Positions 1,272 through 15,533 of a DNA stretch of 39,498 bases are shown here, one piece after another. Under the pieces are notes generated by a model, which saw nothing but the letters and a program-made list of their open reading frames with translations, searched no databases and was not told the DNA's origin. The position numbers and the translations under genes were made by a program. The stretch lies in the NCBI GenBank assembly GCA_937936805.1, contig CALDDP010000067.1, positions 1 through 39,498 of the forward strand, given 5' to 3'. How positions within the stretch are numbered: position 1 is the stretch's first letter; each line of letters opens with the position of its first letter. Source of the stretch: an uncultured Gammaproteobacteria bacterium (GTDB taxonomy: Bacteria; Pseudomonadota; Gammaproteobacteria; GCA-001735895).

Positions 1272-2789
1272 ATGCCTGAGCGCAAGTTGATTGCTGTCGG
1301 CGGATTCCAACACGAAACCAATACCTTTGCACCGCACCTGGCACCATTCGAGGCATTCGAGCGCGCCGACAGCTGGCCCGGGCTGACGATTGGCGAGCCG
1401 CTCATCGAAACCATGGCCGGGCTCAACATCCCGCTTTCCGGTTTCATCGAAACTGCGCTAAGGGCGGGGCATCGACTGCATCCACTGTGCTGGTGCGCTG
1501 CCGAACCGAGCAGCTTCGTGACGCGCGATGCATTTGAACGAGTCGCCGATATAATCTGCTCGGGGTTACGCGCGGGTGCGCTACCGGATGCGGTTTATCT
1601 CGATTTACACGGCGCAATGGTCACCGAACACTATGAGGACGGGGAAGGCGAATTGTTGCGCCGAGTGCGTGAAAACGTCGGCCCATCGATTCCAGTGGTG
1701 ATCAGTCTCGACCTGCATGCAAACGTCACCGAAGGTATGGTGGAAAACAGTGATGCGATGACGATTTATCGAACCTATCCGCATCTCGATATGGCGGCTA
1801 CCGGTGCCCGCGCCTGTGAGTTACTCGAGTTTTTACTCGCGGGCCACAAACTGCACAAGGCCATGCGTAAAATACCCTTCCTGTTCCCGCTCACCTCGCA
1901 ATGCACCGACTTCGAGCCCTGCCGTTCGCTCTATGGCGCGCTGGAGACGATGAGTCTGCGGCCAGGGATCAGTGACGTCGATTTCGCGACCGGGTTTCCG
2001 CCTGCCGATATCGCCGAATGTGGTGCCGCGGTGGTCGCCTATGGTGTCGACCAGGAATCGGTCGAGGCGGTGGCTGATCAGCTTTACCGGCAGGTACTCG
2101 ATGCCGAGGCGGATTTTACCTTCGAAACCTTTTCCGCTGACCAGGCGGTACAGCGCGCGATGAATAATGATTCAGACAAACCGGTGGTGCTCGCCGACGC
2201 GCAGGACAACCCGGGCGCCGGGGGTACCTCCGATACCACGGGCCTGCTCGAGGCGTTGGTTCGAAACGGCGCAAGGCAGGCCGTCATAGCCATTTTGTAC
2301 GATCCGGAAGTTGCCGCTATGGCGCATGCGGCAGGCGTCGGCGCGAACTTCGCAGCGGAACTGGGCGGCAAAAGTGGATTTCCAGGGGTGCCGTCTTACG
2401 CGGGAAAGTTTGCTGTCGAAGCGTTGGGCAACGGGCGTTTCGTGTTCACTGGTGAAATGAACCTGAATTCACATGCCGAACTCGGCGACATGGCGTTGCT
2501 GCGGGTCATCGACCACAACTCCGAGGTGCGCGTCGTCGTCGGCAGTGCGCGTGCACAATGCCTCGACCTGGCGATGATCCGCCATCTCGGCATTGAGCCG
2601 ACCGAACAGAAAATCGTCGCGGTTAAAAGCACGGTGCATTTTCGCGCTGACTACGACCCGATCGCGGCCGAAACGCTGGTGGTAATATCACCGGGCGCAA
2701 ATTACTGTGAGCTCATCGATATGGAATACAAAAACCTGCGTGCCGGTGTCAGACTGGAAACGTTGGGGCCCGAGCATCAAAATCAGTAA
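1272..2789 (+). CDS. M81 family metallopeptidase (MlrC-like)
   Basis: The 505-residue product starts with GGFQHETNTF and carries DLHGAM (around residue 116) and DLHANV (around residue 150), followed by YRTYPHLDM. These are the conserved metal-binding blocks of the MlrC/M81 family, named after microcystinase C, which hydrolyses a linearised microcystin. The C-terminal half contains the DNPGAGGTSDTT block, also typical of the family. Most MlrC homologues sit in bacteria that do not degrade microcystin and have unknown, probably amide-hydrolysing, roles. No signal peptide is seen, so a cytoplasmic location is likely. The start lies 2 bases after the peroxidase stop, with a purine-rich gagaag upstream. 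The 3' end overlaps the convergent giant gene by 7 bases. Confidence 0.88.
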   Translation: MPERKLIAVGGFQHETNTFAPHLAPFEAFERADSWPGLTIGEPLIETMAGLNIPLSGFIETALRAGHRLHPLCWCAAEPSSFVTRDAFERVADIICSGLRAGALPDAVYLDLHGAMVTEHYEDGEGELLRRVRENVGPSIPVVISLDLHANVTEGMVENSDAMTIYRTYPHLDMAATGARACELLEFLLAGHKLHKAMRKIPFLFPLTSQCTDFEPCRSLYGALETMSLRPGISDVDFATGFPPADIAECGAAVVAYGVDQESVEAVADQLYRQVLDAEADFTFETFSADQAVQRAMNNDSDKPVVLADAQDNPGAGGTSDTTGLLEALVRNGARQAVIAILYDPEVAAMAHAAGVGANFAAELGGKSGFPGVPSYAGKFAVEALGNGRFVFTGEMNLNSHAELGDMALLRVIDHNSEVRVVVGSARAQCLDLAMIRHLGIEPTEQKIVAVKSTVHFRADYDPIAAETLVVISPGANYCELIDMEYKNLRAGVRLETLGPEHQNQ

Positions 2790-5700
2790 AGACCGAATTT
2801 TTCGAGGCTGGCCTGAAAACGATCTCGCAGGGCTTTATTGATCGATAGCGATCGCACCAGGCCCTTGCCCGTGACGCTACTGTCGAGCGCCCTGATTTCG
2901 GTGGCGAGTTCTTTGGCCATGGCCTCGTCACCGCGTTCCACGAGTGCGTGGACCAGGTAAAATCGGCACAGTGGCGAGTCGGGTTCGACGTCGATTCCAC
3001 GTCGATAAGTATCGATTGCATCGTCAAGACTACCGGAAAATTGTTCGATCTGGCCCTGGATCAAGTAATACCAGTTGGGTAGTACCGGACACAGCTGCAA
3101 CATGTTCTGGTTGCGAGTGCGGGCCTGCTCAAAGTCGCCGATAAAAATATAGGCAAAAGCCGTTAATGCCTGAATCTCGGCATTACCGGGCTGCAGCTCG
3201 ATTGCTTTGCTGAAGGCGGCAAGCATCTCGTCGGTTTCGTGTTTCATGAGGTGAATCGTACCGGCAAGACTCCAGGCTTCGGAATACTCAGGCGCGAGGC
3301 TGAGAGCATGGTTGTTGGCTTTTTCGGCCTCAGCTAAAGCGTCTTCGAAAGATTCAGTGCGTCCGATATAGACTTCCTGCCAGTGGGTCCAGCCAAGTGA
3401 GACCCAGGCATAGGGATAACCGGGATCGAGCTCGATTGCCTGTTTCGCCATGTTGCGGGCTTCGAGGATATTCTTCTGGATGTAAGTGTCCTGTAAATCA
3501 ATCGCTTCAAGGGTTAACTGCCAGGCCTTGATATTGGTAGTGCCGGCCGAGCGGTGCAATGCCATTTCACCATCGTCGAGATGCACCTTCATCGCCAGTG
3601 CGATATTCATCGACATCTCGTCCTGCACCGCGAAGAGATCATCGAGATCGCGGTCATAATGCTCACTCCAGACTATTTGCTTGTTTTGTGAATCGATCAG
3701 ATCGGCGTTGACACGAATTCGATCGCCACTCTTGCGCACGCTGCCCTCGAGAATATAGCGAACCCCCTGTTGCTTCGATATATCCTCGATCGATGCATTC
3801 CGGCCTTTATATTGCATTGTCGAATGACGCGCGACGATGCGCATATGCCTGAATTTCGACAGGGTTGAAATGACATCGGTGGTAATACCGTCGCTGAAGT
3901 ACCCCTGTTCGGAGTCACCGCTCATGTTTTCGAATGGCAGCACCGCGATCGATGGCATTTCCTCGAAAGGCCCGGTGAGATCTTCGAGCAAACCAGCCTG
4001 TACCAGCTGGTCGAAGGCCACTTCGAAATCCTCGTCGTAACGGTAAGCCTGGGAGATACGCCACAGGCGTCGCCATGCGTTTTCGTCCGTCGGATAGTTC
4101 GGCATTTCACGTTTTGCCAGTTCCTGGTAACGCTTCATTTCCTTGCGTGCTTCCTCGGCTAAACCCAGTCCATTGAAGCAGGCAGCTATCGATGCGTGGA
4201 TACTGGCCGGGGGGTGAGGAATCGAACGATAGGTCTTTATCGCCTTTTCGAATTGCCCCGCACCCTGGTAAACCCCACCCGCAGACCAGCCGGCGCCGAC
4301 GCTGTGCGGATCGAGTTGCAGCGCCCGGTCGGCATAGGGGATAGCTTCGTCGATTCGGCGGGTGAAACCGAGCAGGTCTGCCTTGACCACGTAGCCCTCC
4401 GAAGCCGTTGGATTCAGTTCGATTGCCTTGTCGACATGAAACTCGCTTTGTTCGTAGTTTCTCTTGAAAAACAGATACTCTCCGAAATAGGAATGCGCCA
4501 GCGCGTTGTCGGGTTCGATTTTGATCGCGGTTTCGAGGTGATACCTGGTCAGGCTTTCTGAATTTGCCTGGTCGTCTGTCCAGCCTTCCAGAATATCGAT
4601 CCAGTTAATCATCCCCAGGTTGGTATGCGCGGTCGAATTCTCCGGGTCGATCTCGAGGCATTTCTCGATCTCCTGCCTCGCCTTGACGAAGTCGCTGGCC
4701 GTGAACTTGCCGAAATAATATAGTCCGCGCAGCAGGTAGTCGTAGCTCTGCAGGTTTTTCGCGGCTTTACGCGCCGCCGACTGTTGTAGCGTGTGGCCGA
4801 TACGGCCGCTGATGGTGCCGGCAATTGTCTGGCTCAATTCCTGTTCCAGCTCGAGGATGTCTTCGAGTTCGGCGTCGTACTGTTTACCCCATACCTGGTT
4901 ACCGGTTGCCGATTCGATCAATTGCACCGAGATCCGAACCTTGTGAGCCGATTTGCGAAAGCTGCCCTCAACCAGGTAGGTCACATTCAGTTCATCGGAA
5001 ATTTCCTCCGAAGACTTGCCGCTATTCTTGAAAGCAAAGCTCGAATTCTGTGATTTGACGGCGAGGCCATCGAACAATCCAAGGGACAGGATGATGCTCG
5101 AGGTTATACCGTCGCTGAAATACTCCTGCTCGGGATCGCCGCTCATATTCTCGAACGGCAGCACCGCAATCGAGGGCATGCTGTCGACCGTTATTTCGAG
5201 CTGATCGCATAAGCCGGCCTGCAAAAGCAGGTCGAAAAAGGTATTTGAATCTTCTATGTACTGGAAAGGCATAGCTTCGTACCAGTACTCGCGCCATTCA
5301 TGTTCATTGGCGGGAAAATTCGCCATTTGTGCCTGTGCCAGTTCGAGATAATGCTGCATTTCTGTTCTTGCTTTGTCTGTTTCATTCATACCGGCGAGCG
5401 CGGCGGCGGTTTGTGCGTGCAGGCTCGGTGACATGTGGGGAATCGAGCGAAACGCCTTTATCGCGCGCTCATACTGCCCAGTGCTTAGGTAAACTTCACC
5501 CTCAGTCCAGCCGACATAAGGATGGTATGGATCGATTTGCATGCTCATGTCGGCATATTCGAGCGCTTCTTCGTAACGCCGCATCACGCTCAGTGCGCCG
5601 CATTTCATCGTGTAGCCATCAGGCAGGGTCGGGTTTAACTCGATGGCGCGGTCGGCGTGTATCTCGGCCCGTCCGAAATCGCGTGCAAATACCAGTTGTT

Positions 5701-8700
5701 CCGACATGAAGGCGTGGGTCAGTGCATTGTCGGGCTCGAGTTCGATGGCTTTTTCGGCATAGAGTCTCATCATTCGTCTGGCTTCTTCGCGATCTGCTGT
5801 CCAGTTTTCCAGGAGCTCCATAACATAGGTTTCTCCCAGCATGGAATGCGCCTCGCCATTGTCTGGATCGCACTTGATAGACAATTGAAACTGCTTGCGC
5901 GCGATGAGATTGTCGCGGACATTGAATTTCTCGAGATGATGAAGGCCGCGCATCAGGTAATCGAAGCTCTTAAGATCCTTTTTCGGCTTTTTCAAAGACG
6001 CGTTTTTCAGTTCTTTGCCGATGCGCCCGCTTATCGTACCGGCAATATTTTTTACCATCTCTTCTTCAATGGAAAAGAGGTCTTCGAGACTACAATCAAA
6101 ACGCTTGCCCCAAAGCTGATTCCCGCTGGCAGTCTCGTCAACCTGAACCGTGATGCGTACCTTGTCGCCGAACTTGCGAATGCTTCCCTCGACTATGTAT
6201 TGAACCGCCAGTTCGCCGACAATTTCATCGATGCCTTTTGCACTGTTCTTAAAGGCAAAGCTGGTATGGCGGGATTTAACATTAAGACCACTAAAAGAGC
6301 TTAGACTTACGATGATGCTCTCCGATATTCCATCACTGAAATACTCCTGCTCTGGATCGCCCGACAGATTGCTGAAGGGTAAAACCAGGATTGATGGTAA
6401 AGCCTCGGGACCAGTGCTTTTTTGCGTAGCCGCCATTTCCTCTTCGAGTCCTGCCCGTAGCAGGTAATCGATGATGTCCTGGTTGAGCGCAGGGTTGGCG
6501 AATGGTGCATTGTCTCTATAATAATCCAGCCATTGCGGAATGGTTTTCGGCATGGATAACATGTTCTGCCGGCAAAATTGGAGAAAAGCCGTCAGGGCCT
6601 TTTGTGCATTTTCCAATCGCTCGAGCTTGATATTAGCCGCGATATTGTAGATCTGGATAAATGCGGGAGCATTTCCAGTACCTGCAATAGTGGCCAGGCA
6701 ATCTTCGTACCGGCCGCTGAAATAAAGTGATTCGGCCTGTATCCACCTGACCCAGGAGTGATATGGATCGAGACGCAAGGCAAGTTCTGCTTTTTCCAGC
6801 GCAGCTTCGGCTTTTCCCTGCAGGCTGAGGTTGACCGCCTGCATGGCGATGGCTTCGGCATCGTTAGGGTTTTTTTCCAGCGCTTGCTGCAGTTGTCGAT
6901 CGGCTTCCTCATACCGATACCGATAGGCCAGGTAATCGGCATAGGCGACCTTGACCTGGGTCAAATCGGGGGCCAGCGCAAAGGCTTTGTGGATATGCTC
7001 GTCAGCCAGCTTGCGAGCATCTTCGATATCTTCAACCCAGCGATCGATCACGTTGATATCGTGGCACCAAAAGAGCTCCGTGTGCGCGAGGGCATTATCC
7101 GGGTCAAGGGCCAGGCATTGATTCAACTTGTCAATGGCAGTTAATGTTTCCTGTGCGTTTCCCTTATTGGCATGATGCCTGCCGGCGAGCAGCAAATCGT
7201 AGGCCTGCTGATGCGCGGCGCCCTTGGTGATCGCGATGCGCTGTAAGTCCGACTCTATCTGCCCGGTGACCGTGGCGGCGATGGAGCGGCTCAGCTCCTC
7301 TTCGAGATCGAACAGGTTTTCGATTTCAGCGTCGTAGCGTTTACCCCAGACCTGGTTGTCACTTTTCGCGTCGACCAGCTGGACCGTCACCCGGATGTTT
7401 TTGTCGGTTTTACGAATACTGCCTTCTACGATGTAATCGACCTCGAGCTCTTTTGAAATTTCATCGGGGCTTTTAATCTGCTGCTTAAACGCAAAGCTCG
7501 AATTTCGCGACTTGACGTTGAGTCCCGGAAACAACGACAGGTTCAGAATAATGCTTTCGGTAATGCCGTCGCTGAAGTATTCCTGCGCGGGATCGCCGGA
7601 CAGGTTATCGAATGGCAGCACGGCGATACCATGTTCGCTTGACTGAATCCGGGCGTGGGGAGACAAAACTTCTTCGCTGAGCCCCGCCTGAATCATACAT
7701 TCAATGATATCCTGGTTGATTTGCGGATCGGCAAACGGGTAATTTTCACGTGTATATTGCAACCACTCGTCGATAGTTTGCGGCATCGCCAGCATGCTTT
7801 CCCGGCTTTCCTGCAGAAGTGACTGTAATGCCTGTCGTGCCGGGTCGATTCTGCCGAGTTTGACATTGGACGCGATTCCAAAGATCTGGATGAAACCCGG
7901 CGAGGTACGCATTTTCGTGATCGTCTTCAGGGTGGCTTCGTATTGACCGGAGATAAACTGCGATACCGCAACTTCCCACTCGGCCCAGGGATGGTAAGGA
8001 TCGAGTAAGCACGCGCGTTCGGCGAATTGCAGCGCGTCCTCGGCTTGACCCTGCATCTCGAGGTTCAACGCCATGGTCGTCAAGATAGTCGGATCGTTAG
8101 GGTTGGTTTCGAGTGCCATGTCGAGGTGTTTCGTTGCTTTTTCGAATTCACTGCAAAACACCAGGTATTGGGCATAAAATACCTGCACCGTGCAGGATTC
8201 TGGCGCCATCGCCATCGCCTTTTGGATGTGTTCCGCCGCCAGTTTGAAAGAGGTCAGGTAATCCTCAGTCCAGCGTCCGAGGTAGTCCAGTAAATGACTG
8301 ACGTAAATCCACATCAGCGCCCTCACGTTATCCGGGTCTTTTGCGAGGCACTGGTTCAGTTTCTCGATCGCGATCACCGTGTCCTGCCGATTGTAGCGTT
8401 GATTGTGATAGATACCGCTGAGCAGTAGATCATAGGATTGTTGATCCGTGGCACCCTTGGCAATCGCGATACGCTGCAGCTCGGATTCGATCTGACCGGT
8501 GACCGTGGCCGCAATCGTGCGGCTCAGATTTTCTTCCAGCGAGAACAGGTCGGAGATATCGGCGTCGTAGCGCTTGCCCCAGATCTGGTTGCCCTCGGCG
8601 GCATCGATCAGTTGCACCGTGATGCGGATGTGTTGATCAGACCTGCGGATGCTGCCCTCGACGATGTAGTCGACGTTGAGTTCGGTGGAAATCTCGCCAA

Positions 8701-9664
8701 TGCTCTTGATTTGTTGCTTGAAGGCGAAGCTGGAATTGCGCGATTTGACCTGCAGCCCCGGGAATAGCGACAGGTTGAGGATGATGCTGTCAGTTATGCC
8801 GTCGCTGAAATATTCCTGCTCGGGGTCTCCGGACAGGTTATCGAACGGCAGCACCGCGATGCTGTGATCATTTGACGCAGTCGAAGCGACAGGTGCTTTA
8901 CTGACAGCGGGAGTTGGCGTGGGCCCTGGTTTGGCTGCGCCACCCGCTATTTGATCGCGTAACTCGATCGTTGCGCTTTGGGGGTCTACATCGAGTTCGT
9001 CACGTAAAACCTGCTCACAGCGTTTGAAGGCTTGCAGCGCGTGGCTGCGGTCGCCATGTTCGAAATAGCTGCGTATCAAGATGCGCCAGCCCGACTCGCC
9101 GAGCGGGTCCTGTTTGACCAGCCGTTCGGCGGATTTGATCGCATGACTGAAATCGTGACTGAGTAGCTGGGTTTCCGCCAGGTTCGACAGTATCTCGATG
9201 AACTGGCGTTTGAAGCGGCCGCGTTCGCCGTCGAGCCATTCCTGGCAGGCCGCATCGCGAATCGAAATACCTTCGAGGAATTCACCCTGGTAGAGATCGG
9301 CCGCGGTGGTCAGGGATTCGTAACCGCCCTCGGCGGCGAGGCGTTCGAACTCGTGTACGTCAATATCGATAAGTTCGGGGATCAGGCTGACCGTGGTGCG
9401 ATCGACCTGTAGCACCATGTCGGCGACGTCACCCAGCGATTTTTTGATCGCGCTCAGGCACTGGCGCAACGAGTTACGCGCCTGCTCTTCGCCGCGGTCG
9501 CTCCACAGCAGGTTAATCAGGCGTTCACGCGGATGACGTATGCCGGGGGTCAGCGCCAGGTAGGCCAGCAGGACTTCGGCCTTGCGCATTGACAACGAAA
9601 TTCGCGTGCCTGACGGCAGCAAACATTCGAAACGGCCCAGCAATATGAGCTCCAACTTCGACAT
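2783..9664 (-). CDS. Giant SARP/BTAD-type regulator with five tandem TolB-like-TPR modules
   Basis: The 2293-residue product begins with a winged-helix domain of the SARP/OmpR type (about residues 1-100; LILLGRFECLLPSG, then RERLINLLWSDR). A bacterial transcriptional activation domain follows at about 105-245. After a Pro/Thr/Ala-rich linker (about 247-266) come five copies of one unit, each opening with (S/G)I(A/L)VLPF(D/S/E)N(L/M)SGD and then EQxYFSDGI. The opening Ile falls at residues 269, 680, 1092, 1499 and 1906. Each unit holds a TolB-amino-terminal-like domain of about 130 residues and then TPR repeats, and units 1-4 end in a QAGL/RAGL motif. No transmembrane segment or catalytic domain is visible, so it is probably a cytoplasmic transcription factor with a large scaffold or sensor. 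The start has a good Shine-Dalgarno sequence (GGGGAGG). Proteins of this general type usually carry one module. Target genes and ligand are unknown. Confidence 0.9.
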   Translation of the reverse strand: MSKLELILLGRFECLLPSGTRISLSMRKAEVLLAYLALTPGIRHPRERLINLLWSDRGEEQARNSLRQCLSAIKKSLGDVADMVLQVDRTTVSLIPELIDIDVHEFERLAAEGGYESLTTAADLYQGEFLEGISIRDAACQEWLDGERGRFKRQFIEILSNLAETQLLSHDFSHAIKSAERLVKQDPLGESGWRILIRSYFEHGDRSHALQAFKRCEQVLRDELDVDPQSATIELRDQIAGGAAKPGPTPTPAVSKAPVASTASNDHSIAVLPFDNLSGDPEQEYFSDGITDSIILNLSLFPGLQVKSRNSSFAFKQQIKSIGEISTELNVDYIVEGSIRRSDQHIRITVQLIDAAEGNQIWGKRYDADISDLFSLEENLSRTIAATVTGQIESELQRIAIAKGATDQQSYDLLLSGIYHNQRYNRQDTVIAIEKLNQCLAKDPDNVRALMWIYVSHLLDYLGRWTEDYLTSFKLAAEHIQKAMAMAPESCTVQVFYAQYLVFCSEFEKATKHLDMALETNPNDPTILTTMALNLEMQGQAEDALQFAERACLLDPYHPWAEWEVAVSQFISGQYEATLKTITKMRTSPGFIQIFGIASNVKLGRIDPARQALQSLLQESRESMLAMPQTIDEWLQYTRENYPFADPQINQDIIECMIQAGLSEEVLSPHARIQSSEHGIAVLPFDNLSGDPAQEYFSDGITESIILNLSLFPGLNVKSRNSSFAFKQQIKSPDEISKELEVDYIVEGSIRKTDKNIRVTVQLVDAKSDNQVWGKRYDAEIENLFDLEEELSRSIAATVTGQIESDLQRIAITKGAAHQQAYDLLLAGRHHANKGNAQETLTAIDKLNQCLALDPDNALAHTELFWCHDINVIDRWVEDIEDARKLADEHIHKAFALAPDLTQVKVAYADYLAYRYRYEEADRQLQQALEKNPNDAEAIAMQAVNLSLQGKAEAALEKAELALRLDPYHSWVRWIQAESLYFSGRYEDCLATIAGTGNAPAFIQIYNIAANIKLERLENAQKALTAFLQFCRQNMLSMPKTIPQWLDYYRDNAPFANPALNQDIIDYLLRAGLEEEMAATQKSTGPEALPSILVLPFSNLSGDPEQEYFSDGISESIIVSLSSFSGLNVKSRHTSFAFKNSAKGIDEIVGELAVQYIVEGSIRKFGDKVRITVQVDETASGNQLWGKRFDCSLEDLFSIEEEMVKNIAGTISGRIGKELKNASLKKPKKDLKSFDYLMRGLHHLEKFNVRDNLIARKQFQLSIKCDPDNGEAHSMLGETYVMELLENWTADREEARRMMRLYAEKAIELEPDNALTHAFMSEQLVFARDFGRAEIHADRAIELNPTLPDGYTMKCGALSVMRRYEEALEYADMSMQIDPYHPYVGWTEGEVYLSTGQYERAIKAFRSIPHMSPSLHAQTAAALAGMNETDKARTEMQHYLELAQAQMANFPANEHEWREYWYEAMPFQYIEDSNTFFDLLLQAGLCDQLEITVDSMPSIAVLPFENMSGDPEQEYFSDGITSSIILSLGLFDGLAVKSQNSSFAFKNSGKSSEEISDELNVTYLVEGSFRKSAHKVRISVQLIESATGNQVWGKQYDAELEDILELEQELSQTIAGTISGRIGHTLQQSAARKAAKNLQSYDYLLRGLYYFGKFTASDFVKARQEIEKCLEIDPENSTAHTNLGMINWIDILEGWTDDQANSESLTRYHLETAIKIEPDNALAHSYFGEYLFFKRNYEQSEFHVDKAIELNPTASEGYVVKADLLGFTRRIDEAIPYADRALQLDPHSVGAGWSAGGVYQGAGQFEKAIKTYRSIPHPPASIHASIAACFNGLGLAEEARKEMKRYQELAKREMPNYPTDENAWRRLWRISQAYRYDEDFEVAFDQLVQAGLLEDLTGPFEEMPSIAVLPFENMSGDSEQGYFSDGITTDVISTLSKFRHMRIVARHSTMQYKGRNASIEDISKQQGVRYILEGSVRKSGDRIRVNADLIDSQNKQIVWSEHYDRDLDDLFAVQDEMSMNIALAMKVHLDDGEMALHRSAGTTNIKAWQLTLEAIDLQDTYIQKNILEARNMAKQAIELDPGYPYAWVSLGWTHWQEVYIGRTESFEDALAEAEKANNHALSLAPEYSEAWSLAGTIHLMKHETDEMLAAFSKAIELQPGNAEIQALTAFAYIFIGDFEQARTRNQNMLQLCPVLPNWYYLIQGQIEQFSGSLDDAIDTYRRGIDVEPDSPLCRFYLVHALVERGDEAMAKELATEIRALDSSVTGKGLVRSLSINKALRDRFQASLEKFGLY
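2786..8866 (-). repeat. Five tandem in-frame TolB-like-TPR coding repeats of about 1.23 kb
   Basis: The repeat units lie inside the giant gene. Their approximate limits are 8866-7634 (unit 1), 7633-6398 (unit 2), 6397-5177 (unit 3), 5176-3956 (unit 4) and 3955-2786 (unit 5). The opening motifs are 411, 412, 407 and 407 residues apart. Units 1 and 2 look closest to each other: both contain YDLLL(S/A)G after the TolB-like part and end in NQDII. Units 3 and 4 form a second similar pair (SGRIG). Unit 5 is the most diverged and lacks the QAGL ending. DNA coding the opening motif is locally well conserved between units, especially the stretch coding for EYFSDGI. Confidence 0.9.
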
Positions 9665-10317: not shown

Positions 10318-12711
10318 ATGCTGAAACAAATGGCGAGACAACCCGGAATTTCCCGATTGCTGGCTGCTCTCGGAATGCTGGGCCTGCTTGCGGCGTCTGT
10401 CTGGTCGAGCCCCGGCTATTCGCAAACTGAAATGACCATCGGTGTGCTCGCGTTTCGTGGCAAGCAGGACGCACTCGAGCGCTGGGGACCAACCGCGCAG
10501 TATCTTTCGCAAAGCATCAGCGATCACAGTTTTAAAATTGTTCCGTTGACGCTCGAGGGCATGCTATCCCGGGTCGAGCAGGATCGGCTGGATTTTATTC
10601 TGACCAATACCGGTAACTATGTCGTGCTCGAGAATGCCTTCGGAATTTCGCGGCTCGCTACCCTGAAGGTTCGACAATTCGCGGCGGATTTCACCCAGTT
10701 TGGTGCGGTTATTATTACCCGGCGCGGCCATCCGGATCTGAATCAGCTTGAAGATATCGCCGGACATTCGCTGATGGCGGTCAGCGAAGAGGCATTTGGC
10801 GGGTTTCAGATGGCCTGGCGCGAATTGATCGACGTGGGCATTGATCCGTTCGAAGATTTGCAATCCCTGCAATTTGCGGGGTTTCCCCAGGATGATATTG
10901 TTCACGCCGTGATTGCGGGCGAGGTCGACGCCGGAACGGTACGCAGCGGTACCATCGAACGCATGGCCGCGGATGGTTTGATTGATATCGAGCAGATCCG
11001 CGTACTCGGCTCGAGAGACAGCAAATCCTTCCCTTTTTTGCATAGCACCCGACTCTATCCCGAATGGCCGTTTGCCAAGGCGCGTAAGACATCGCAGGAA
11101 CTGGCGCAACGAGTTGCGATCGCGTTACTGCAAATGAAGCCGGACAGTGAGGCTGCCACCCTGGCATTGTCTGCCGGCTGGACGATTGCGCTGGATTATG
11201 GCCCGGTGCACGAACTGTTCCAGGAGCTCGAGATAGGTCCATACGCCTATTTAAAGAAACCGGAACTGGCGCTGGTCTGGCGGGAATACAAGGGCTGGAT
11301 AATATTCAGCCTCGCGATGGTGCTGGTGCTGGTCACCTTGCTGGTGTTGATCGGGCGGGTGAATCGGCGTATTTCGCAATCTGAATTGAAGTACCGCGAA
11401 GAAGCCAACCAGCGCAAGCAGGCCCAGGAGCTGCTCGCATCGCACAAGGAGAATCTCGAGGTCCGCGTCGAGGAGCGCACCGCCGAACTGGCCGAGGTCA
11501 ATACCTCGCTGCGCCGCAGTGAGGCCGCGCTGCGTGCCATGCATGACATCACTACCGATGCGGACAGAGGATTCGACGACAAGCTCGAGAGCCTGTTAAG
11601 CGAAGGCTGTCGGTTCTTCGGTATGGAATTTGCGATGGTTACCGGTGCCACCGAGTCGGGCGAAGGCAGCATTTGCAGGGTCGGCAGCGACGCGGAGAGC
11701 AGTTGGCAGGAGCCGATGCGGATCTGCGAACGCCTGCGTGACGAAATAAAGACCCTGCAGCAACCCGTGGCGATTGCGGATTTCAGTGCTTATTCGTTTC
11801 AGGACGGTAGCCGGGATCTTTCAGGTTCAGCGATTGGCGCCGATTATCGGGTGAACGATGAAACTGCCGGCTTTATTCTGTATAGCAGTTCGAACGCGGT
11901 ACAAAGAGTTTTCTCGGACGTCGATATCGATATTTTACAGCTGATGGCGCAATGGCTGGGCGGCGAGCTGGAAAGATCCGAGATCAACCTGCGTGCGCAG
12001 GAACACCAGGCCCACCTGGCACATGTGTCGCGTCTCAATACGATGGGTGAGATGGCGACGGGGATTGCACACGAACTTAACCAGCCCCTGACCGCGATAC
12101 TCAATTACAGCAGTGGCAGCCTCAGGTTGTTGCAGAAAAATGGTGACGACGATACTGCTTTAAAGAATGCGATCGAAAATATCGGTAACGATGCCAGGCG
12201 AGCGGCGGGAATCATCAAGCGCCTGCGTGAATTTATCAAGCGCAGTGAGCACAGGCCCGAGCGTTTTCTGCTGCGCGACTGTATCGAGCCGGCGGTGGAA
12301 TTACTGCGCCCCAGGCTGGATCAGCATCAGATTGATGTCGATGTCAGCTACGCTGCCGATGTTTCCGATGTGCTTGCAGATCGAATCCAGATCGAACAGG
12401 TACTTGTCAACCTGTTGCTAAACTCTATCGATTCGTTGCAGCATTGCGCGCAGGCATCAGGAAAGATTATGGTCAGGGTCGATAGCGGCGATAAAGGGGA
12501 TATCTCCATCGGGGTCAGCGATACGGGTAAGGGTCTCGCTGCCGATGTGGTCGATCACCTGTTTGATCCATTTTTTACCACCAAAACCGAGGGCATGGGT
12601 ATGGGCCTTTCGATCAGCCGTTCGATTATTGAATCGCACGGCGGCACCATCGAATACCTGGTCAATGAATTTCAGCAACCCACGTTTCGTTTCACGCTGC
12701 CAACGACATGA
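10318..12711 (+). CDS. Sensor histidine kinase with periplasmic PhnD-type binding domain (TtrS-like)
   Basis: The 797-residue protein starts with a hydrophobic signal segment (about residues 10-35). A PhnD-like periplasmic substrate-binding domain follows at about 38-300, with IGVLAFRGK, RLDFILTNTGNYV and GEVDAGTVRSG. One transmembrane helix lies at about 327-348, then a coiled coil to about 405 and a GAF-like region at about 410-560. The kinase core follows, with phospho-acceptor H585 in GIAHELNQPL, the N-box at N702 (NLLLNSIDSL) and DTGKGL from D735. This order matches TtrS, the tetrathionate sensor, except for the GAF-like insert. The response regulator gene overlaps its end by four bases. 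The neighbouring DsrE-like, thioredoxin-like and MBL genes suggest a sulfur compound as signal, but the ligand cannot be read from sequence. M5 at 10330 is an alternative start. Confidence 0.88.
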   Translation: MLKQMARQPGISRLLAALGMLGLLAASVWSSPGYSQTEMTIGVLAFRGKQDALERWGPTAQYLSQSISDHSFKIVPLTLEGMLSRVEQDRLDFILTNTGNYVVLENAFGISRLATLKVRQFAADFTQFGAVIITRRGHPDLNQLEDIAGHSLMAVSEEAFGGFQMAWRELIDVGIDPFEDLQSLQFAGFPQDDIVHAVIAGEVDAGTVRSGTIERMAADGLIDIEQIRVLGSRDSKSFPFLHSTRLYPEWPFAKARKTSQELAQRVAIALLQMKPDSEAATLALSAGWTIALDYGPVHELFQELEIGPYAYLKKPELALVWREYKGWIIFSLAMVLVLVTLLVLIGRVNRRISQSELKYREEANQRKQAQELLASHKENLEVRVEERTAELAEVNTSLRRSEAALRAMHDITTDADRGFDDKLESLLSEGCRFFGMEFAMVTGATESGEGSICRVGSDAESSWQEPMRICERLRDEIKTLQQPVAIADFSAYSFQDGSRDLSGSAIGADYRVNDETAGFILYSSSNAVQRVFSDVDIDILQLMAQWLGGELERSEINLRAQEHQAHLAHVSRLNTMGEMATGIAHELNQPLTAILNYSSGSLRLLQKNGDDDTALKNAIENIGNDARRAAGIIKRLREFIKRSEHRPERFLLRDCIEPAVELLRPRLDQHQIDVDVSYAADVSDVLADRIQIEQVLVNLLLNSIDSLQHCAQASGKIMVRVDSGDKGDISIGVSDTGKGLAADVVDHLFDPFFTTKTEGMGMGLSISRSIIESHGGTIEYLVNEFQQPTFRFTLPTT

Positions 12712-13349
12712 GTGCTCAGGACCAGCCCGGCAGCAACCAGCAAATGGTCTACGTTGTCGACGACGATCTCTCGGCCCGAGAGTCATTGTGCTGGTTGCTC
12801 AATACGGAGGGTATTGCTACCCGGGCTTTCGCATCGGCGGAGGCATGTCTCGAACACTGGAGTAGTGACTGGAGTGGCTGTATCACGGTGGATGTTCGCA
12901 TGCCGGGTAAAAGCGGGCTGCAACTGCAGGAAGAATTGAATTCACGCCACAACCTGCTGCCGGTGATTGTCCTTACTGGTCATGCCGACGTACCGATTGC
13001 GATCCGGGCGATGAAACTGGGTGCTTATGATTTTCTCGAGAAGCCGTACTCCGACAGCGAACTGCTGACCTGCGTTAAGAATGCACTGGAACTGGGTCGA
13101 GAAATCGATCACGCCGAGCTGGAGAGGAACCGCGCCGAAATCGCGATTGCTAACCTGACCGATCGGGAGCGTGAAGTGATGTGCCTGGTGGTAGAAGGTA
13201 ACACCAACAAGGCTGTTGCCGCCCGGCTGGGGATTTCCGAGAAAACGGTTGAGGTCCATCGCTCGCGTGTCATGGAAAAGACAGCGGCCAGCTCGCTATC
13301 GGACCTGGTGCGTATCTGCCTGATGTTAAAAGAAAAATTATCGCTTTAA
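12708..13349 (+). CDS. FixJ/TtrR-family response regulator, LuxR-type DNA-binding
   Basis: The 213-residue protein is a two-domain regulator. The receiver domain (about residues 13-130) has the acidic pocket VVDDD (D18-D20), phospho-acceptor D62 in TVDVRMPGKSG, the switch threonine in LTGH (T90) and K112 in FLEKPY. A LuxR-type helix-turn-helix follows from about residue 147, with LTDREREVMCLVVEG and ISEKTVEVHRSRVMEK. The motif pattern is that of the FixJ/TtrR group. Its ATG overlaps the kinase stop (ATGA), so the pair is translationally coupled. Phosphorylation by the upstream kinase should control binding near target promoters; the dyad at 13358-13369 just downstream is one candidate site. 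Confidence 0.92.
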   Translation: MSAQDQPGSNQQMVYVVDDDLSARESLCWLLNTEGIATRAFASAEACLEHWSSDWSGCITVDVRMPGKSGLQLQEELNSRHNLLPVIVLTGHADVPIAIRAMKLGAYDFLEKPYSDSELLTCVKNALELGREIDHAELERNRAEIAIANLTDREREVMCLVVEGNTNKAVAARLGISEKTVEVHRSRVMEKTAASSLSDLVRICLMLKEKLSL

Positions 13350-13357
13350 AGGGAGTA

Positions 13358-13378
13358 AGGGAATTCCCTAATTATAAT
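13358..13378 (+). promoter_or_regulatory. Perfect 12-bp palindrome next to a TATAAT -10 box, upstream of the DsrE-like gene
   Basis: AGGGAATTCCCT at 13358-13369 is a perfect palindrome, and a consensus TATAAT lies at 13373-13378, about 58 bases before the ATG of the DsrE-like gene. No good -35 hexamer is found at 16-18 bases, so the promoter may need an activator. The dyad would then sit close to the -35 to -10 spacer, a position that fits a repressor or MerR-like site better than a classical activator. The site is seen; its function is inferred. Confidence 0.45.
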
Positions 13379-13435
13379 TTACGGGTGGCTGGCATAAGCT
13401 GGAGCGCGTCCGAATATTCTTACTGAGGAGGAATT

Positions 13436-13921
13436 ATGAAAACGATTACAAAACTGGTTATCGGCACCTTGCTGCTTTCGAGTTACTGGATGGCGGGAAG
13501 TGCAATCGCCGGTGAATACTATGGTAAGCAGAAAGTTGTTTATCACATCAACTACGATAACCCCAAGAAGCAGTCTGGCGCGTTGCGCAATATACAGAAT
13601 CACATCAATGCTGTCGGTGCTGAAAATCTCGACCTGAAGGTTGTGCTGCACGGTAACGGGCTGGCATTGTTGCTCGAGCCTGATTCGCTCGACAAGTTGA
13701 AGAAGTTCAAGCACGCCAATGCAGACGACAAGATGACCGCCAAGGTTACCGATCTCAAGGGGCAGGGCGTGTCATTTCATGTCTGTGCAAATACCGTACG
13801 GGGTCGCAAGGTAGACGTTGAATCCGATCTCTACGATGTGTCCAAGGAGGATATAGTGCCGAGTGGCGTTGCCGAAGTAGCGAAGCTCCAGCAAGAAGGG
13901 TATGCCTACATCAAACCTTGA
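13436..13921 (+). CDS. Exported DsrE-like family protein
   Basis: The 161-residue product has an N-terminal signal peptide (about residues 1-25, ending near SAIAGEYY). The mature part matches DsrE/DsrF-like folds: a first strand KVVYHINYD, a helix with RNIQNHINAVG, a strand LDLKVVLHGNGL and the segment GVSFHVCANT with conserved C117. DsrE-fold proteins carry or bind sulfur, and periplasmic versions often sit near sulfur-oxidation genes. An excellent Shine-Dalgarno (GAGGAGGA) lies a few bases upstream of the ATG. The gene follows the two-component pair by 86 bases and has its own candidate promoter and a strong hairpin after the stop. Catalytic sulfur transfer by the single cysteine is inferred from the family. 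Confidence 0.85.
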   Translation: MKTITKLVIGTLLLSSYWMAGSAIAGEYYGKQKVVYHINYDNPKKQSGALRNIQNHINAVGAENLDLKVVLHGNGLALLLEPDSLDKLKKFKHANADDKMTAKVTDLKGQGVSFHVCANTVRGRKVDVESDLYDVSKEDIVPSGVAEVAKLQQEGYAYIKP

Positions 13922-13951
13922 TCTATGGGTCTGGCGTCAGCGTTAATCCAC

Positions 13952-13983
13952 GCCGGCAAGCTGCTCCCGGGCAGCTTGCCGGC
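13952..13983 (+). terminator. Hairpin terminator after the DsrE-like gene
   Basis: Positions 13952-13964 (GCCGGCAAGCTGC) pair perfectly with 13971-13983 across a six-base loop. This is a 13-bp GC-rich stem starting 30 bases after the DsrE-like stop. The following bases are only moderately T-rich, so termination may be partial, allowing read-through into the next two genes. Confidence 0.7.
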
Positions 13984-14020
13984 CGCTATTTGTTGCTCGA
14001 AGAAGCTCCCTTTTCAGCCG

Positions 14021-14548
14021 ATGGCTGGAAATCCAACGTCTGCCGGCGCAGCAAGAAAACTGGTTTTCGCATTGCTGCTGGCGCTTGCGCCAGCGGCGCA
14101 GGTGATGGCCGCTTCCCCGCTATTTCAAAATCTTAAAACCGGTGTATTCGAAACCCTCGATGATCATGAAACTGACAAGCAGTGGATGGTGGTCATGATA
14201 TGGGCCCACGATTGCGAGATTTGCGAGCGTGAAGTCGGTGACTATCAACAGTTTCATTTAAGCCACAGTCAGGATGACGCCAGGGTAGTCGGCATCACCA
14301 TTGACGGAGAGAGCAGGAAGAACGCTGCGCTGGGTTTCGTGAATCGACACCAACTCGCGTTCGAGAACCTGCTGGGGGAGCCGGAAACGGTAATGTCCTA
14401 CTACCAGTTGATAAGCGGAAGTCGATGGATCGGAACGCCCAGCTTTCTGATTTTTGCGCCCGGCGGTGAATTGAAGGCAGCCCAGGCAGGCGGGGTGCCG
14501 GTCGAAATCGTCGAAAATTTTATTGCCGACAACAGCGCTAATCCCTAG
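14021..14548 (+). CDS. Exported thioredoxin-fold protein with CEIC motif
   Basis: Counting from the ATG at 14021, the 175-residue product has a signal peptide (KLVFALLLALAPAAQVMA, about residues 13-31). A thioredoxin-like domain follows with MIWAHDCEICEREV (C65/C68), VVGITIDGE and the cis-proline region IGTPSFLIF. This is the layout of TlpA/ResA-type periplasmic thiol-disulfide proteins. The frame stays open upstream to 13925, but that stretch crosses the strong hairpin at 13952-13983 and encodes no plausible domain, so the start at 14021 is preferred although its Shine-Dalgarno is weak. The 3' end overlaps the MBL gene's likely start region. The neighbours suggest a role in periplasmic sulfur or thiol handling; the substrate is unknown. 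Confidence 0.82.
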   Translation: MAGNPTSAGAARKLVFALLLALAPAAQVMAASPLFQNLKTGVFETLDDHETDKQWMVVMIWAHDCEICEREVGDYQQFHLSHSQDDARVVGITIDGESRKNAALGFVNRHQLAFENLLGEPETVMSYYQLISGSRWIGTPSFLIFAPGGELKAAQAGGVPVEIVENFIADNSANP

Positions 14549-15533
14549 CCGATACTTGCGCGCGTTGGTTTACAATCCGAAAATTCTCCTGTTAGTCGCT
14601 TGCGGTCTCTGGCTGAACACAATGGTTGCATGGGCCGCCGATTATTCGCCGGTACCGGTAGATATGACGCCGATCCAGGTGTCGCCGCACGCGTATTACG
14701 TGCGCGGTGCTACCGGCATCGCTACCGATAATTATGGATTCATATCAAACGCGGCCTTCGTCGTCACCGATGAGGGAGTAGTGGTTTTCGACACCCTGGG
14801 GACGCCCGCGCTCGGGGCGGGACTACTCGCAGCGATACACGGCGTGACCGATGCGCCGATCAAAACCATATACATCAGCCATTACCACGCTGACCATATG
14901 TACGGCGCCCAGGCTTTCTCTGCAAGCGGTGCGGAAATTGTGGCTTCAGATGGCGCGAAGCTCTACCTCGAGGGAGAAGTCGCCGGCCAGCGCCTGCGGG
15001 AGCGTCGCCTGAGCCTGAGTCCATGGGTCAACGACGATACGCACATCGTCGAACCTGATCGTTACCTGCAGGGCGAAGAGCGTTTTACTCTCGGTGGTGT
15101 CAGGTTGCGTGTGCTAAATATCGGTAGCGCACATTCCGAGGGGGACCTGGTTTTGTTTGTGGAAAACGATGCGGTGCTGTTTTCGGGCGATATCGTTTTT
15201 CAGGAGCGTATCCCGTTTCTCGGCTCATCGAGTTCCGCCGAGTGGCTCGAGGTATTGAACGAGATGGAGCAGATGGACGTGGTTGCCATCGTGCCCGGTC
15301 ACGGGGCCGCGGCCGAAAGCCCGCGTGAAGTCGTGTCGCTGACCAGGGAATACCTGTCCTTCGTGCGCGCGGCAATGCAGCAGGCGGTAGCGGAATGGAT
15401 ACCGTTTGATGAGGCCTACGAGGCCACCGACTGGGGTGATTTCATCGAGTATCCGGCCTTTCTCGAAACCAATCGACGCAACGCTTATGGCATCTATCTT
15501 TCGCTGGAACAGGAATCGCTTGAATCCCGCTAG
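14523..15533 (+). CDS. Exported metallo-beta-lactamase-fold hydrolase (SoxH-like)
   Basis: The product has a signal segment (LLLVACGLWLNTMVAWA) followed by an MBL domain. The zinc motif is HYHADH (H120, H122, D124, H125 counted from 14523). Further ligands are suggested by GSAHSEGD, LFSGDIVF and VPGHG. The family resembles the exported MBL proteins called SoxH or quinoprotein-relay zinc metallohydrolases, which often occur with sulfur-oxidation or PQQ-enzyme genes. There is no ATG before the signal segment. TTG codons at 14523, 14556 and 14565 are the only candidates, and the first ATG (14622) would remove most of the signal peptide. The start given overlaps the thioredoxin-like gene by 26 bases and is uncertain. 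The reaction is unknown. Confidence 0.85.
   Translation: MPTTALIPSRYLRALVYNPKILLLVACGLWLNTMVAWAADYSPVPVDMTPIQVSPHAYYVRGATGIATDNYGFISNAAFVVTDEGVVVFDTLGTPALGAGLLAAIHGVTDAPIKTIYISHYHADHMYGAQAFSASGAEIVASDGAKLYLEGEVAGQRLRERRLSLSPWVNDDTHIVEPDRYLQGEERFTLGGVRLRVLNIGSAHSEGDLVLFVENDAVLFSGDIVFQERIPFLGSSSSAEWLEVLNEMEQMDVVAIVPGHGAAAESPREVVSLTREYLSFVRAAMQQAVAEWIPFDEAYEATDWGDFIEYPAFLETNRRNAYGIYLSLEQESLESR

Follow-up and report, generated by a model that had tools for sequence, protein, structure and literature searches.

Sensing of thiosulfate and tetrathionate is known from respiratory reductases and has been put to use in gut biosensors. In the case of TtrSR, described in Salmonella, Shewanella baltica and Vibrio parahaemolyticus, a PhnD-type sensor kinase is coupled to a FixJ-like regulator, and the TtrR box of Vibrio (GTGG-N4-CCAC, validated by EMSA) lies just before the -35 element (PMC11293645). 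The thiosulfate sensor ThsSR of Shewanella halifaxensis also combines a PhnD-type kinase with a FixJ-like regulator, whose operator is TGTGG-TTTA-CCACA, and controls the promoter of phsA, a thiosulfate reductase gene (PMC5408782). Both TtrR and ThsR act as activators from such boxes (PMC11293645, PMC5408782). Among DsrE-family proteins, the DsrE3A of Metallosphaera cuprina (DsrE3A/TusA) reacts with tetrathionate to form a Cys-S-thiosulfonate (PMC4175335).

The window analyzed here is a stretch of 39,498 nucleotides from an uncultured Gammaproteobacteria bacterium (contig CALDDP010000067.1), in which a related kinase-regulator pair is followed by the genes of three exported proteins (Table 1). 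The five open reading frames of the original prediction were all recovered with the same coordinates, strand and order, and domain searches agreed with the names given to them. The pair shares with TtrSR the PhnD-type sensor kinase, the FixJ-like regulator and a GG-N4-CC operator core, but there is no adjacent ttrBCA, the predicted output is DsrE, the predicted operator is AGGG-N4-CCCT (the TtrR box itself is not matched), this copy of the kinase bears a GAF-like segment, and the scores fall well under the curated TtrS and TtrR cut-offs. Whereas ThsSR drives a reductase, a periplasmic DsrE with thioredoxin-like and metallo-beta-lactamase (MBL) genes is found here. This DsrE has the family fold and the conserved cysteine in common with DsrE3A and DsrEFH, but carries a signal peptide, has MTH1491 as its nearest fold and coexists in the host with a separate true dsrE within dsrB-E-H-C. 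The last two proteins resemble TlpA/ResA-like thioredoxins and SoxH-related MBLs in fold and predicted periplasmic location, with scores below all the curated cut-offs. Neither the sensor type nor the operator geometry is new; the open-licence literature searched gave no description of the DsrE output, of sox-linked relatives that share the dyad or of the alternative regulators, any of which may have been described elsewhere. The reading that we regard as fairly probable is that of a TtrSR/ThsSR-like pair in which a sulfur oxyanion, thiosulfate or a polythionate being the likeliest, would bind the PhnD domain and switch on the periplasmic DsrE, and by read-through the thioredoxin-like and MBL genes. 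It rests on the order and domains of the genes, on their inheritance as a unit and the empty sites, on a dyad unique to the DsrE promoter with the geometry of the proven TtrR and ThsR operators, on repeated linkage of related sensors to DsrE and to sox genes, and on the sulfur-oxidation genes of the host. Sensing of thiosulfate and tetrathionate would thereby extend to sulfur oxidisers, where related PhnD sensors, with an operator that can be computed, lie ahead of sox operons and of the DsrE gene.

Table 1. Features of the sensor-DsrE locus (positions within the window).
Feature	Position	Strand	Remarks
Sensor histidine kinase	10318..12711	+	Domain searches; order PhnD-type domain, TM, GAF-like segment, HisKA, HATPase_c; orthologues about 62-71% identical in genus
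PhnD-type periplasmic domain of kinase	10438-11166	+	aa 41-283
GAF-like segment of kinase	11575-11976	+	aa 420-553
HisKA of kinase	12043-12240	+	
HATPase_c of kinase	12379-12705	+	
FixJ/TtrR-type response regulator	12708..13349	+	Receiver + LuxR-type HTH; orthologues 65-81% identical
Predicted regulator operator, dyad TAAGGGAATTCCCTAA	13356..13371	+	GGG-N4-CCC core 13359-13368
Predicted extended -10 element TGGCATAAG	13390..13398	+	Same spacing in 14/14 genus loci and L076
Exported DsrE-family protein	13436..13921	+	Single invariant cysteine Cys117, motif VCANT
Exported AhpC/TSA-TlpA-like thioredoxin-fold protein	13925..14548	+	CEIC; AhpC-TSA 45 bits
Terminator-like hairpin after DsrE	13953..13982	+	13-bp stem, -25.6 kcal/mol, poor U tract
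Exported MBL-fold hydrolase, SoxH-related	14523..15533	+	HYHADH; Lactamase_B 90 bits

The kinase had been described as most like TtrS and endowed with a PhnD-type domain, which is borne out by a PF12974 (phosphonate-binding) match of 3e-36 in the domain search, by the joint presence of the PhnD-type periplasmic domain, HisKA and HATPase_c as in TtrS, and by the TtrS equivalog NF040750 as its top NCBIfam match, although with 322.7 bits it stays below the cut-off of 750. The regulator, whose start overlaps the kinase stop, similarly shows the superfamily domains Response_reg and GerE expected from its assignment to the FixJ/TtrR type, with scores under the cut-offs for both FixJ (NF006900; 217.3 bits, cut-off 255) and TtrR (NF040749; 150.9 bits, cut-off 290). 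The nearest families of the MBL are the SoxH-related TIGR04559 and TIGR04558, also missed (171.4 and 166.3 bits for cut-offs of 280 and 300). Since the curated equivalog cut-offs of the TtrS, TtrR, FixJ and SoxH-related families are all missed, the kinase, the regulator and the MBL are, by their profile scores, relatives of the TtrS, TtrR/FixJ and SoxH-related families and not members. As for the GAF claim, the term GAF-like is fair (GAF_3 gives 22.0 bits, under the cut-off of 27), but the segment is no novelty of this locus: several genus orthologues lack it (kinases of about 604-651 aa vs about 790-800), a similar segment also occurs on one-component PhnD proteins of the same family, and the comparison identifies it as an indel among orthologues.

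Besides this genome, 11 others of the genus carry sensor orthologues, with PhnD domains 66-74% identical, and around them kinase, regulator and DsrE are constant as far as the contigs reach. One locus (L024) has no thioredoxin-like gene, and no MBL match was obtained in L017, L024 and L026. By gene content, the conserved core is the kinase, the FixJ/TtrR-type regulator and the periplasmic DsrE, the thioredoxin-like and MBL genes being frequent but dispensable; the proposed co-occurrence therefore holds for the core, which also recurs in other gamma- and alphaproteobacteria, but not for a fixed five-gene unit. Within the genus, the core is either there or missing as a whole between identical flanking genes: three genomes (G005, G013 and G029) show an empty site, with the same TPR gene and LysE-type exporter and no module in between. 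When contig-end loci with a partly visible regulator or kinase are scored as present, 14 cases have both kinase/regulator and DsrE, 15 have neither, and two have DsrE without a visible kinase/regulator, one because of a contig end and one by true loss. The latter is the congener G030 (locus L057), where DsrE stands alone, kinase and regulator are lost and the dyad is gone. SoxB is widespread in the genus whether DsrE is present or not, so that their co-occurrence is weak (p = 0.015). Some copies are irregular, as the DsrE gene is interrupted in congener G024 (L025:7065-7429), possibly through an assembly error, and carries an in-frame TAG in G020; G001, G009 and G023 have a second regulator-DsrE locus on another contig (L044, L051, L054), which would be a paralogue or else stem from a second strain in the bin.

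The dyad lies in the gap between regulator and DsrE and reads AGGG-AATT-CCCT, which is the N4 geometry of the TtrR box with other outer bases. Its centre is 29.5 bp upstream of the CATAAG of TGGCATAAG, and every one of the 14 genus loci, as well as L076 of another lineage, has an element like TGGCATAAG at 29 bp from the centre of the dyad; provided that CATAAG is the -10, this spacing would place the dyad near -41. Zero-mismatch copies of RGGGWWTTCCCTNATTA number 13 across 19 whole genomes and all lie before DsrE; 10 of the 11 genomes with the sensor have the exact dyad, and the eight without the sensor all lack it (p = 1e-4). A local regulon with one predicted genomic site is thus what these sequences support. 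Neither the extra exact dyads of G001, G009 and G023, which belong to second copies of the same locus, nor the one-mismatch dyads of G005, G013, G015 and G021:C39, in or by unrelated genes, were retained as further targets. Outside the genus, a dyad precedes DsrE in four of the six loci with an adjacent PhnD sensor vs three of the 55 others (p = 9e-4); L131 and L121 have the sensor, and no dyad was found in them. More generally, GGG-N4-CCC occurs up to 350 bp after the regulator in 15 of 28 PhnD-linked cases, for 3.1 expected (p about 2e-9) under shuffle controls that preserve base composition only. Such dyads after related PhnD-linked regulators occur in unrelated families and stand before sox operons (L036, L191 and L194), an orphan binding protein or DsrE.

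The host genome contains aprBA (with a complete AprA), a dsrB-dsrE-dsrH-dsrC stretch and, where a contig ends, an N-terminal fragment of soxB, so that the system belongs to a sulfur oxidiser, whose true cytoplasmic dsrE is a gene other than the exported DsrE. A search for FccB gave no match in this genome, nor did the controls. The absence of Sox genes noted originally is correct for the window but not for the genome, and no tetrathionate reductase genes were seen among the adjacent genes, either here or at orthologous loci. Likewise, a stand-alone system is supported in the sense of a local, single-site predicted regulon, with the dyad solely at DsrE, but not metabolically, given the sox, dsr and apr genes of the host.

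Searching 84,980 species genomes with an alignment of DsrE yielded 373 relatives, many of them with titles of sulfur-oxidiser groups such as Thiotrichaceae, Sedimenticola, Thiodiazotropha and Cocleimonas. The expected association with sulfur is strengthened by relatives that lie beside aprBA, sat or fccB, and by sister sensors directly upstream of sox operons, whose SoxB and SoxY are above the curated cut-offs where tested. A PhnD sensor adjoins DsrE in L076, L097, L121, L130 and L131 (the latter with fccB also upstream), and in L106 as a PhnD-LuxR one-component protein. Among loci picked by their DsrE, so that linkage rates are conditional, 55 of the 61 non-genus relatives with usable upstream sequence have no adjacent PhnD sensor, which indicates that DsrE does not need control by one. 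Mapping the DsrE label onto a tree built from 66 PhnD domains takes five changes, and well supported branches make four of these unavoidable, so that linkage of DsrE with PhnD sensors arose repeatedly, about four or five times. The sensors next to sox genes (L036, L191, L194, L197 and L190) form a supported clade (99/89), and no literature linking PhnD sensors to sox operons was found. Other sampled PhnD sensors precede an orphan SBP_bac_11 protein.

The exported DsrE is the most conserved protein of the module in the genus (80-91% identity vs about 62-71% for the kinase). It matches the DsrE/DsrF-like PF02635 with 51.4 bits, above the Pfam gathering score of 22.7, and Cys117 is within C-x-N-T in 75 of 75 relatives. 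The predicted structure is a DsrE fold (pLDDT 90.8), its top matches including MTH1491, YchN and the DsrE Swol_2425, with MTH1491 as the nearest solved fold (TM 0.90 by target length); the myoglobin matches of the PDB search were discarded as chance. The exported protein had no NCBIfam match, to the DsrE of DsrEFH (TIGR03012) included, and no dsrFH neighbours; the true dsrE is on another contig. The Cys-S-thiosulfonate formed by the DsrE3A of Metallosphaera with tetrathionate (PMC4175335) suggests that the exported DsrE may be a periplasmic thiosulfonate or sulfane carrier; a role for exported DsrE of this kind was not found in the literature searched. More tentatively, and with somewhat more doubt than belief, the whole family of 373 relatives could be an unrecognised periplasmic sulfane/thiosulfonate carrier of sulfur-oxidising proteobacteria, placed under an envelope sensing of its own by what may be three unrelated arrangements: PhnD kinase plus FixJ-type regulator, PhnD-LuxR one-component protein, and ECF factor plus a DsrE-ended putative anti-sigma factor.

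Under the preferred reading, a small sulfur oxyanion would bind the PhnD-type domain in the periplasm and alter the phosphorylation of the regulator by the kinase, and the phosphorylated regulator would bind the dyad centred near -41 and activate DsrE. Read-through past DsrE would then supply the thioredoxin-like protein and the MBL hydrolase. In the periplasm, DsrE would carry or buffer sulfane sulfur or thiosulfonate on Cys117, the CxxC protein would re-reduce it, and the MBL may hydrolyse a thioester or sulfur adduct. As ligand, thiosulfate is favoured over tetrathionate, though not decided, since the sister sensors stand before sox operons.

The same switch might instead respond to phosphonate, phosphite or another small anion, with DsrE as a stress protein whose role concerns thiols. 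PhnD domains of other proteins bind phosphonate or phosphite, PF12974 takes its name from phosphonate binding, and the sole match of the sensor domain in a PDB sequence search was the phosphite-binding PtxB (E=0.005). Such a ligand is nevertheless unlikely in view of the sister sensors directly before sox operons, of TtrS as the top curated match of the kinase, and of the apr, sat and fcc genes beside the DsrE family. As the entire region is syntenic in the genus, kinase-regulator and DsrE might also be neighbours by descent only, with the true targets of the regulator elsewhere; the unit-wise presence or absence with intact flanks, the exact dyad solely at DsrE and a linkage that arose several times in other lineages make this very improbable.

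On the other hand, the regulator could act as a repressor, or the dyad could serve a repressor overlapping the conserved ATTATAATT, as most genus loci have a TATAAT-like stretch 9 bp downstream of the centre of the dyad. A position search for TATAAT gave clear peaks in the genus only, at 9 and about 29 bp, the promoter element being degenerate outside it. However, L064, L066 and L076 lack the TATAAT-like stretch at 9 bp and retain the element 29 bp away, and boxes of this kind serve TtrR and ThsR for activation, so that repression appears quite unlikely. From the spacing of dyad and promoter and the behaviour of TtrR and ThsR, we infer that the regulator would activate at the predicted operator.

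At the locus itself, the strong hairpin between DsrE and the last two genes suggests that DsrE probably has its own main transcript; relatives show a hairpin at the equivalent place, often with a T run. The true start of the thioredoxin-like gene is probably ATG 14021, the frame from 13925 being over-extended, since relatives have their start where its residue 33 lies, and the 96 bp ahead of that contain the hairpin. The TTG start of the MBL overlaps the preceding gene and is uncertain. The roles given above to both proteins are guesses from fold.

Several other arrangements were observed. One-component membrane regulators in L030-L035 and L106 consist of a PhnD domain, TM, a GAF-like segment in some cases and a LuxR-type HTH, are kinase-less and adjoin an orphan SBP_bac_11 gene or DsrE, several of them with a GGG-N4-CCC dyad. 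In L132:5013-6313, an ECF sigma factor is paired with a putative anti-sigma factor, probably periplasmic in its C-terminal part, which is DsrE-like with the conserved Cys; similar pairs occur in L070, L072-L075, L084, L085, L088, L089, L094, L101, L104, L126 and L134. For DsrE with anti-sigma factors, no relevant description was found in the literature searched. These pairs are divergent from thioredoxin-DsrE-DsrE2-porin-DUF302 genes, with aprBA adjacent in several and sat in L072 and L096. Elsewhere in the window, positions 2783-9664 encode a protein of 2293 aa in which a BTAD domain is combined with a TolB_N/FlgO-like plus TPR module in about five tandem copies, a number that seems to differ among relatives.
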